Source: Oricola nitratireducens (GTDB lineage: Bacteria; Pseudomonadota; Alphaproteobacteria; Rhizobiales; Rhizobiaceae). From it: a stretch of 64,000 nucleotides of DNA. Below, one piece after another: positions 10,094 through 13,048 of the stretch. The position numbers were made by a program, and so were the translations under genes. The notes beneath the pieces were generated by a model, which was not told where the DNA came from, did not search any database, and saw only the letters and a program-made list of their open reading frames with translations. The first letter of the stretch is position 1, and each line of letters begins with the position of its first letter. The stretch spans positions 1 to 64,000 of the forward strand of contig NZ_JACZCS010000023.1 of assembly GCF_014904745.1 (NCBI RefSeq), in the 5' to 3' direction.

Positions 10094-13048
10094 CTACTGC
10101 CCCGGCCTTCCCGACTTCTTCGGGCGGCGGGCGGCGGCGCGCTGGTCGGCCGGGTCCTCGTAGGAGCCGACGCCGATCTTGTGGCGCTTGACAGGGTTGG
10201 CGGCGTTGTCTTCTCCCGCCCTTAAGCTCCTCGCCTCCGGCTCGTCGCTGGCGGGAGCGGGGACGGAGCCGGGCTTCCTGGGGAGCTTGCCGGTGCCCAG
10301 CGGTTTCTCGGTCCGGCCGACCGTCATCTCGTCGAGCGTGTTCTTGCGGAACAGCGGTTTGCCGAGAGGTTTTGCCATGTCGGTGCCGGGGCCCATGTCG
10401 TCGAGGCTCGGCTTCTTGAAGCCGGATTTGACGGGTTTCCCCGTGGCCTTCGCCTTGCGCGACGCCTTGGTGTTCTCGACGCCGGTGTCGCGGGCGAGCG
10501 CGTCGTCCATCACGGCCAGTTCGGTCTCGCGCAGGCGCTTGATCTCGTCGCGCAGGCGCGCGGCGGTCTCGAAGTCGAGATCGGCGGCGGCGTCGCGCAT
10601 CTGGATTTCCAGCGCCTTGAGATGGGCCTCCAGATTGGCGCCGATCAGCGCGCCCTCGTCGGCCGCCAGCCCCTTGGCGCCGGCGATGTCGGCGCGGACA
10701 TGGTCGCGCTCGTAGACCGAGTCGAGGATGTCGGCGATGTTGGCCTTGACCGATTGCGGCGTGATGCCGTGTTCGGCGTTGTAGGCGAGCTGCTTCTCGC
10801 GGCGGCGGGTGGTCTCGCCGATGGCGCGCTCCATCGAGCCGGTGACGTGGTCGGCATAGAGCACGACCTTGCCGTCGACGTTGCGCGCGGCGCGGCCGAT
10901 GGTCTGGATCAGCGAGGTCTCGGAGCGGAGGAACCCTTCCTTGTCGGCGTCGAGGATGGCGACGAAGGCGCATTCGGGAATGTCGAGGCCCTCGCGCAAG
11001 AGGTTGATGCCGACCAGCACGTCGAAGGCGCCGAGGCGCAGGTCGCGGATGATCTCGATGCGCTCCAGCGTGTCGATGTCACTGTGCATGTAGCGCACCC
11101 GCACGCCCTGCTCGTGCAGATATTCGGTCAGGTCCTCGGCCATGCGCTTGGTCAGAACGGTGACCAGCGTGCGGTAGCCGGCCTTGGAGACCTGGTGGAT
11201 CTCGTCGAGCACGTCGTCGACCTGGGTCTTGGCCGGGCGGATCTCGACCGGCGGGTCGATCAGGCCGGTCGGGCGGATGACCTGCTCGGCGAAGACGCCG
11301 CCCGACTGTTCCAGTTCCCAGTTGCCGGGCGTCGCCGAGACGGCGACGGTCTGCGGCCGCATGGCGTCCCATTCCTCGAAGCGCAGCGGCCGGTTGTCCA
11401 TGCAGGAGGGCAGGCGGAAACCGTATTCGGCCAGCGTCGCCTTGCGGCGGAAGTCGCCGCGATACATGCCGCCGATCTGCGGGATGGTGACGTGGCTCTC
11501 GTCGATGAAGACGATGGCGTTGTCGGGGACATATTCGAACAGGGTCGGCGGCGGCTCGCCGGGATTGCGGCCGGTCAGGTAGCGCGAATAGTTCTCGATG
11601 CCCTGGCAGGAGCCGGTGGCCTCAAGCATCTCGATGTCGTAGCGGGTGCGCTGCTCCAGCCGCTGCGCTTCCAGCAAACGTCCAGCCTTTTCAAGCTCTT
11701 CGAGGCGGAGCTTGAGTTCCTCCTTGATGGACTTCACAGCCTGATTCAACGTCGGGCGCGGCGTCACATAATGCGAGTTGGCGTAGATCTTGACGGATTT
11801 GAGCTGGTCGGTCTTCTGGCCGGTCAGCGGGTCGAACTCGTCGATGGCGTCGATCTCGTCGCCGAACAGCGAGATGCGCCAGGCGCGGTCGTCGAGGTGG
11901 GCGGGGAACAGCTCGATCGTGTCGCCGCGCACCCGGAACGAGCCGCGCTGGAAATCCATCTCGCGGCGCTTGTATTGCTGGGCGACGAGGTCGGCGAGCA
12001 ACTGGCGCTGGTCGATGCGGTCGCCGACCGACATCTGGAAGGTCATGGCGGTGTAGGTCTCGACCGAGCCGATACCGTAGATGCAGGAGACCGAGGCGAC
12101 GATGATGACGTCGTCGCGCTCCAAGAGCGAGCGCGTCGCCGAGTGGCGCATGCGGTCGATCTGCTCGTTGATCGAGGACTCCTTCTCTATGTAGGTATCC
12201 GTCCGAGGCACATATGCCTCGGGCTGATAATAATCGTAATAGGAGACGAAATATTCGACCGCGTTGTCCGGGAAGAAGGACTTGAACTCGCCATAGAGCT
12301 GGGCGGCGAGCGTCTTGTTGGGGGCGAGGATCAGCGCCGGGCGCTGCGTCTCCTCGATCACCTTGGCCATGGTGAAGGTCTTGCCCGAGCCGGTGACGCC
12401 GAGCAGCGTCTGGGTGCGGTCGTCGTCGGCGAGGCCGGAGACGAGGTCGCGGATCGCGGTCGGCTGGTCGCCGGCGGGCTCGTAGTCCGACTGCATGCGG
12501 ATGGTGATGCCGCCCTCGGATTTTTCCGGCCGGGCCGGGCGGTGCGGCACCCACAACTCGCCGTCCTTGAACAGCGGATTGCCCGAGTCGATCAGCGCCT
12601 TGAGCGCTTCCACCGTGGCGGTGACGCCGGCGGTGGAGGCGAGCTGCCCGGCCTCTTCCAGCGAAACGTCCAGCCCGGCGACCGGCATCAGCCCCGCCGC
12701 GGCACGCTGGCGCGGATCGTTGGTGCCGCCGATGGAGACGCCGCCGCCGGTGCGCTTGTCGCCGACCGTGTAGGTTTTATCCGCTTTTTTTGTCCCACCC
12801 TTAAGCTTCGGGCTAACGCCCTCGCTGGCGGGCCCCTGGGCCTTCTTTTCCGCTTTCCTGCGGTGCTTGCCGGCCTTGGAGCGGATCTCGCGCGTCTCCT
12901 GCGCTCGGGCGTCGCGCTCGGCCTCGGACTCGAGCTGGCGCACCCAGTCCTCCACGCTGCCGGACAGCGGCGCGCCTTCGAAGTCGGCTTGCGGAGCTTC
13001 CTCAAACCCGGAGGGTTTGCCGGTTTTCTTGGGAGGGGATTTGGCCAT
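10094..13048 (-). CDS. uvrB: UvrABC system protein B with two repeat-derived insertions
   Basis: 984 residues against about 670 in E. coli. The canonical core runs from about 180 to 840: Walker A G-V-T-G-S-G-K-T (about 218), the DNA-clamping beta-hairpin region [10 protein letters not shown] (about 265), the F-I-D-E-S-H helicase motif (about 515), helicase motifs through Q-T-I-G-R-A-A-R-N, and the UVR domain [12 protein letters not shown] that contacts UvrA/UvrC. UvrB verifies lesions in nucleotide excision repair. A 180-residue N-terminal extension and a 140-residue basic C-terminal tail are typical of rhizobial UvrB. Residues 71-86 and 931-947 are encoded by type A palindromic repeats lying in frame in these two disordered regions. 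The core is undisturbed, so the protein should work. A ribosome site is not obvious. Confidence 0.97.
10209..10258. repeat. Palindromic repeat type A inserted in frame in uvrB (3' region)
   Basis: CTCCCGCCCTTAAGCTCCTC, then GCCTCCGGC, then TCGTCGCTGGCGGGAG. On the coding strand it reads [17 protein letters not shown] without a stop. Its ends remain complementary. Confidence 0.88.
12791..12836. repeat. Palindromic repeat type A inserted in frame in uvrB (5' region)
   Basis: TGTCCCACCCTTAAGCTTCG, then GGCTAACGCCC, then TCGCTGGCGGGCCCCT. On the coding strand it reads [16 protein letters not shown] without a stop, in the charged N-terminal extension of UvrB. Confidence 0.88.

Follow-up and report, generated by a model that had tools for sequence, protein, structure and literature searches.

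In-frame palindromic repeats in uvrB of Oricola nitratireducens belong to a dispersed family of bulged hairpins

Why should a DNA-repair gene carry palindromic repeats inside its reading frame, and what kind of element are they? This question is raised by the uvrB gene (positions 10094-13048, minus strand) of Oricola nitratireducens (genome G000), in a window of 64,000 nucleotides, which is the whole stretch of DNA analysed. The 984-amino-acid product, taken from the list of open reading frames, was identified as the excinuclease ABC subunit B with the curated NCBIfam models PRK05298/TIGR00631. These models place the UvrB fold at residues 184-841, with N- and C-terminal linkers beyond it, and the solved UvrB chains align mostly to about the same residues (173-849 at the widest). 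Across 30 aligned UvrB proteins the linkers are variable in both length and sequence, and from this low conservation and the lack of structure coverage they are inferred to be disordered; the AlphaFold model, made with 22 sequences, had a mean pLDDT of 44, too poor to use. In an alignment of 22 UvrB proteins, M1, A2, G14 and F15 are invariant, and S962, Y963, E964, G980, R981, P982 and G983 are nearly so. These conserved terminal blocks flank both inserts, and the N-terminal insert therefore does not lie upstream of a mis-set start.

The two repeats, which we call family A, were located with two covariance models: R1, the first, trained on 13 copies (seven of them in uvrB), and R2, built from 12 non-uvrB copies (alignment A4), of which three are other copies of the window. 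The N-terminal linker copy occupies positions 12787-12838 (plus strand; R2 E-value 9.7e-18, 59.4 bits; also matched by R1), with stem arms at 12794-12799 and 12827-12832 as returned by an arm search. The C-terminal linker copy occupies positions 10208-10261 (plus strand; R1), was matched by R2 at 10210-10258 (E-value 6.1e-14, 48.2 bits), and has its arms at 10215-10220 and 10250-10255. The R2 E-values are rough because the calibration was short; over the 64-kb window R2 gave ten matches with E≤10, of which eight were below 0.01. Thus, the preliminary description was right that two palindromes lie in the uvrB frame without a stop: both were found in the 984-residue frame, by a model that contains no uvrB copy. 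It had assigned them to residues 71-86 and 931-947; the R1 spans, counted from the start codon at 13048 in the minus-strand reading, correspond to residues 71-88 and 930-947. Its statement that both repeats sit outside the helicase core also holds, since they lie beyond all residues aligned to the solved UvrB structures. The presence of two in-frame repeats in uvrB is confirmed.

The window has other family-A copies, all on the plus strand. A decayed copy (10050-10096; R2 E-value 8.1e-8) touches the uvrB stop codon. Another (7217-7270; R2) provides the C-terminal tail of a small minus-strand frame (7370 to 7212), and a third (6570-6621) lies at the 3' end of a minus-strand frame, the stop codon of which (6619-6621) overlaps the edge of the repeat. 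From a fourth copy (2470-2516) the minus-strand frame 2484-3098 takes its final residues, GPASERSEA, and its stop codon; neither this frame nor the frame 7212-7370 had a Pfam match. Two long variants, with ends set by eye, occur at 2350-2464 (extra loop sequence; partial R2 match at 2343-2381, E-value 0.0015) and at 9624-9744 (intergenic; partial R2 match at 9617-9656, E-value 0.0039); the latter has a strong inner palindrome (folding z of -3.94). Elsewhere in the same genome (G000:C43:124985-125078; L018, L200), short-loop copies form a tandem array with a spacing of 40 bases.

The family-A consensus, about 50 bases long, reads TTTTTGT-CCCGCC-[CTTA]-AGC-variable loop-GCT-GGCGGG-CCCCTG, and corresponds to a hairpin made of two helices, of six and three pairs, separated by the one-sided CTTA bulge; the loops measure about 8 to 19 bases, and more in the long variants. 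A scripted arm search over the 91 listed copies returned 79 rows, two of them blank. Among these 79 rows, the outer stem is CCCGCC/GGCGGG in 36, CCCATC/GATGGG in seven, CCCGGC/GCCGGG in six, CCCGTC/GACGGG in three, CGCGCC/GGCGCG in three and CCTGCC/GGCAGG in two, with rarer types besides; some outer stems carry one mismatch, for example CCCACC/GGCGGG in four, and the bulge is CTTA in 59 rows.

In alignment A4, 99.1% of the cells are paired and the covariation score is 0.158 as compared to 0.062 in shuffles, none of 500 being as high. Pairing falls to 24-63% when the partner is shifted by one to three columns; this control leans towards the family-A structure because this structure was derived from the same copies. 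The number of A4 pairs changed on both sides was not above shuffles (90 of 500 as high), nor was the number of further pair types (314 of 500); in alignment A2 the same two covariation measures were each equalled by 154 of 500 shuffles. The folding energy of short copies was unexceptional relative to dinucleotide shuffles (z of -1.39 to +0.12 in seven folds), and what argues for the predicted hairpin is co-variation across the copies, not single-strand folding energy. The Rfam search of positions 1-16000 of the window gave no match above the gathering score, and nothing in the plasmid collection matched one 49-base family-A copy. The idea that the repeats are adapted to code was not borne out, as 3.63 of the six frames were open on average, versus 3.90 in shuffled copies; we consequently attribute their survival in uvrB to the host protein.

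How widely is this family distributed? The genus is represented by six genomes (3.7-5.6 Mb), all that a genus-wide search returned. At E≤0.01, R1 gave at least 91 family-A matches in them, those listed being distributed as follows: G000, 15; G001, 43; G002, 20; G003, none; G004, nine; G005, four. The model was searched in 30 of our 41 genomes (the six of the genus and 24 others of the family or order, the remaining 11, of the order, being left out), and the 24 gave at least one match, a weak one (R1). In each genome no more than 150 first-look candidates, out of thousands in many cases, were scored, so that both counts are lower bounds. Within these 30 genomes family A is thus confined almost wholly to one genus. 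Of the 91 listed matches, 59 fall between genes, 23 within called ORFs and nine across an ORF end. Where the intergenic matches listed have genes on both sides (47 matches), these are codirectional in 29 cases, convergent in 16 and divergent in two, the same neighbour-gene pattern as appears in the part of PMC3733652 that deals with the genome distribution of REPs. The family is accordingly dispersed, with some members in uvrB, as the preliminary description had supposed.

The 23 listed in-ORF matches comprise eight in uvrB, 11 in an unknown paralogous family, two in an integrase-like protein (Phage_int_M) and two that were assigned to a spurious plus-strand ORF of the window but actually lie at the ends of minus-strand frames. 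This spurious ORF, over window positions 6570 and 7217, was produced by our home-made codon-usage gene caller, which was trained on long ORFs of the genus loci and used on other genera too. The paralogous family (L166, L168, L176, L180, L207, L212, L196, L197, L198 and L178, from G001, G004 and G005) is a second recurrent host, with 11 family-A matches and one family-B copy in its linkers among the matches listed. Its members share the motifs [FM]DWEG.. and RPAE.A.RRLIV, and those scanned had no Pfam match; in L168, two family-A matches and one further look-alike follow one another. It is worth noting that 13 of the 63 listed matches of G001 and G002 are no more than 500 bases away from a contig end, which suggests that repeats or clusters may break assemblies and that copy counts may be low. 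The orientation of 67 of the 91 listed copies with the local GC skew was rejected as evidence of lagging-strand mobility, because the copies lack independence and the skew is confounded by neighbouring genes.

The eight listed uvrB matches, two each in G000, G001, G002 and G004 (four of the six species), compare with 0.063 expected under an even spread, an expectation that ignores the amount of tolerant sequence in other genes. Even if same-site copies share descent, we count at least four distinct events (the N site, a second N copy in G004, an early C site in G001 and a late C site), for which P is about 6e-7. R2, which contains no uvrB copy, also found two uvrB matches each in G001, G002 and G004; at the uvrB of G003 and G005, and at 31 loci from other genera, its E-values were 0.068 or worse, all but one of these matches being partial. 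The uvrB genes of G003 and G005 have no family-A copy. The exact deletions anticipated in relatives were not found, as the length differences are unequal to the element. The N-site stretch bounded by RRKAEKKA and TYTVG holds 21 residues in G000 and nine in G003, a difference of 12 against the roughly 17 that the element encodes; at the C site, G003 is shorter by 30 residues and G005 by about 12. Length differences unlike the size of the element suggest that the uvrB sites have been remodelled, and the relatives compared, which are different species and not close strains, gave no readable scar, exact empty site or duplicated target.

Trees of the uvrB core, with some moderately supported forks, separate G000 and G001 from G002, G003, G004 and G005. 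Both groups of this split include species with a copy at the N site, while G003 and G005 have none, so gain or loss has taken place repeatedly. The loops of the N copies are alike in G000 and G002 and belong to different classes in G001 and G004, which fits replacement or separate insertion. Two further observations concern the uvrB genes of these relatives. G002 has a partial second uvrB tail about 0.9 kb downstream of uvrB (L185:11241-11420; G002:C35:154240 on), which departs from uvrB in the palindrome-bearing stretch and contains both a remnant of family B and an A copy of its own. In G001 an insert in uvrB (L026:2023-2121) encodes TGTSHVEPRSGDAQDSPQQKG immediately ahead of the Walker A motif, at a point where G000 reads ADD. 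It lengthens the helicase core by about 18 residues, and the G001 stretches examined contain it only once.

Family A is not the only palindrome in uvrB, whose strong association with such repeats extends over several families. Family B (CTCCCCC..GGGGGAGATGTC-loop-GACAGAGGGGG) gave 99 matches to its exact core in 11 of the 41 genomes, and the reversed control pattern gave none; 83 of these matches are intergenic, 15 lie in called ORFs and one overlaps an ORF. Three of the 15 in-ORF copies are in uvrB (G001, G002 and G008, the latter of another genus), where 0.07 would be expected under an even spread (P about 5e-5). The other hosts, as read from a Pfam scan that left out L276 and L261 (the latter judged spurious), are an SRP54-type GTPase read as FtsY (two copies in one gene), CobN (two copies in one gene), a CbiG/methylase fusion, a biotin carboxylase, a DUF6638 protein and an ATP-dependent DNA ligase (L282), together with L178 of the paralogous family and L278, which had no Pfam match. 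In CobN, which is from G019, both copies fall within the Pfam-matched domain, which indicates that palindromes are not confined to linkers. The FtsY-like GTPase (L241), also from G019, has the peptides encoded by its two B copies (SPLEGEMSAKPTEGG) in the N-terminal part.

CGTC REPs gave 173 matches to the exact pattern in 12 of the 41 genomes (control, none), five of the six genus genomes included; like those of family B, these are exact-pattern counts, and the CGTC matches outside the listed set are all in G008. Among the matches listed, one is in a uvrB frame (G008:C1:934936-934964), 33 bases from the B copy of that gene. The window itself has a CGTC REP at 1792-1820 (CGTCATCCTCGGGCTTGACCCGAGGATCC), one of four in the G000 genome by exact pattern. 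Similar peptides, read from translation alone, occur in other UvrB linkers: B-like in Mesorhizobium ventifaucium (ISPLEGEMSPKATEG, L055) and in the Rhizobiales isolate R129_K (ISPLVGEMSAKLTEGG, L054), and CGTC-like in Chelativorans sp. YIM 93263 (L052). A further candidate, element C (GGGAC...GTCCC), was rejected as a dispersed family, as it was found once each in G001 and G018, both times in uvrB (up to three mismatches, 41 genomes). It encodes TPFE.SE.D.RVPA (L299, L300) at a similar place of UvrB in two genera.

From the family, its bulged hairpin with compensatory changes, its in-frame occurrence in uvrB of four species and its excess there over an even spread, we propose, with good confidence, that the inserts are mobile palindromes of a genus-restricted family tolerated in the UvrB linkers. 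We infer mobility from the copy number and the differences between species. First, family-A copies would move or copy themselves as hairpin DNA, mostly into the spaces behind genes. Second, the mover would act in trans or be a host process; a Y1 transposase (PF01797; RAYT/IS200) was found in none of the six genus genomes and in seven of the 41 overall, and control genomes matched in five of 14 cases. Third, copies arriving in coding regions would be removed unless they lie in frame in a tolerant segment. Fourth, the two terminal linkers of UvrB, which are poorly conserved, would be such segments, as flexible ends in which several palindrome families could accumulate and be translated as harmless spacer peptides.

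The uvrB copies could also have arisen by local copying from a nearby cluster, through recombination, gene conversion or replication slippage, and not by genome-wide transposition. Such an origin has some claim on the window, where six R1 matches share one orientation within 10.4 kb around uvrB (2470-12838), and on G002, where five do so within 14 kb and the partial uvrB tail has its own A copy; both exact CGTC matches of G005, moreover, lie 0.2-0.4 kb downstream of its uvrB. However, the 43 listed matches of G001 are spread over six contigs, with two in uvrB and one 3.5 kb away, and the uvrB copies of G004 are about 82 kb from the nearest other listed match on their contig. We regard local copying as possible though unlikely.

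A broader proposal, which we consider rather improbable, is that, in Rhizobiaceae-type bacteria at large, the UvrB terminal linkers are a preferred and selected landing place for in-frame palindromes. Three or more unrelated families (A, B and CGTC) would have entered them, A and B repeatedly, the ends of the protein would be largely remodelled mobile DNA, and the insertions may tune nucleotide excision repair. A separate reading, that selection favoured the insertions in uvrB for such tuning (e.g., as a temporary mutator state, on which Di Nocera et al. 2013 speculated for repair genes), appears still more doubtful. The over-representation of uvrB in two independent families (eight of the 21 credible in-gene matches listed for A and three of 14 for B) fits with it, as do the B copy in the DNA ligase and the two REPs described for the uvrB gene of Rickettsia conorii in a section of PMC3733652. 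However, the window inserts lie outside the UvrB fold, their sequence and position vary between species, and the same elements occur in proteins such as the FtsY-like GTPase, CobN, the CbiG/methylase fusion, the biotin carboxylase and the DUF6638 protein (B), and the unknown paralogous family (A, 11 matches).

In 30 uvrB genes, perfect inverted repeats (arms of at least eight bases) gave no clear signal against synonymous shuffles, their density per kb being 0.58 in the N linkers, 0.82 in the C linkers and 0.59 in the core, versus 0.73, 0.64 and 0.72, respectively, in the shuffles; we think that bulged stems escape this count. That the segments are ordinary low-complexity linker, resembling the repeat by chance or composition, would agree with these densities and with the variability of the linkers among 30 UvrB proteins, but it is contradicted by the E-values that R2, lacking uvrB copies, gave both inserts in 64 kb, and is hardly credible.

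The tolerated mobile palindromes that we favour have counterparts in other bacteria. The Wolbachia palindromic elements are, like family A, in-frame palindromes in an alphaproteobacterium. The likeness to Rickettsia and Wolbachia drawn in the preliminary description is fair as regards the mode of life, since family A is both intergenic (59 of the 91 listed matches) and in frame inside unrelated genes; what does not stand is the novelty of such palindromes inside genes, which have a precedent in uvrB of R. conorii. Within the portion of Di Nocera et al. 2013 (PMC3733652) considered here, two single REPs are reported in that gene, along with many REP matches in repair genes and a speculation on mutator effects; "Mesorhizobium" is absent from the main text. 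Rickettsia palindromic elements (RPEs), including REPs of the RPE-4/RPE-6 type, resemble family A as short palindromes that are intergenic and in frame in unrelated proteins, according to parts of PMC3733652 and PMC10969869, the latter including a review of RPEs and their in-frame fusions. They are set apart by description, as RPEs are about 150 bp long in the part of PMC10969869 that gives their size, whereas family A is about 50 bp, GC-rich and has a CTTA bulge.

CGTC REPs share with family A that they are small dispersed hairpins, mainly behind genes and intragenic in repair genes, and in the part of PMC3733652 concerned no dedicated transposase is known for them, just as none was found for family A. 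They are defined, in the relevant section of PMC3733652, by a stem of 8-9 bp with A-T as the first two pairs, a loop of 4-5 bases and a CCA-like tail. In contrast, the stem of family A, CCCGCC/GGCGGG plus AGC/GCT with the CTTA bulge, is devoid of A-T pairs at its foot, the loops are of about 8-19 bases or longer, and the tail is CCCCTG, not CCA-like. CGTC REPs also have an unpaired CGTC, TGTC or CCTC next to the stem; TGTC does precede CC in seven of the 12 A4 rows, and the outer stem is then of only 5 bp plus the bulged AGC/GCT. GTAG REPs, which RAYT transposases mobilise, are likewise small, many-copy hairpins; family A differs from them in that it has no GTAG at the foot of its stem (TTTGT, CCCCTG) and that no RAYT was found in the six genus genomes.

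The literature search found no title or abstract start on family A or on rhizobial uvrB palindromes, most subscription papers lying outside it, and family A is apparently undescribed. It shows mobile palindromes becoming protein sequence in an alphaproteobacterial genus that does not belong to the Rickettsiales and has genomes of 3.7-5.6 Mb. With at least 91 matches, five positive species and one without a match, it is a countable system for asking whether tolerance or selection makes repair genes a more frequent target than other genes, a question that is only speculated on in the part of PMC3733652 devoted to it, and it adds a REP-like family with a bulged, covarying stem for which no RAYT was found. 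Together, in-frame mobile palindromes are of a known kind, and what is apparently new is a family for which no RAYT was found and uvrB as a recurrent landing place.
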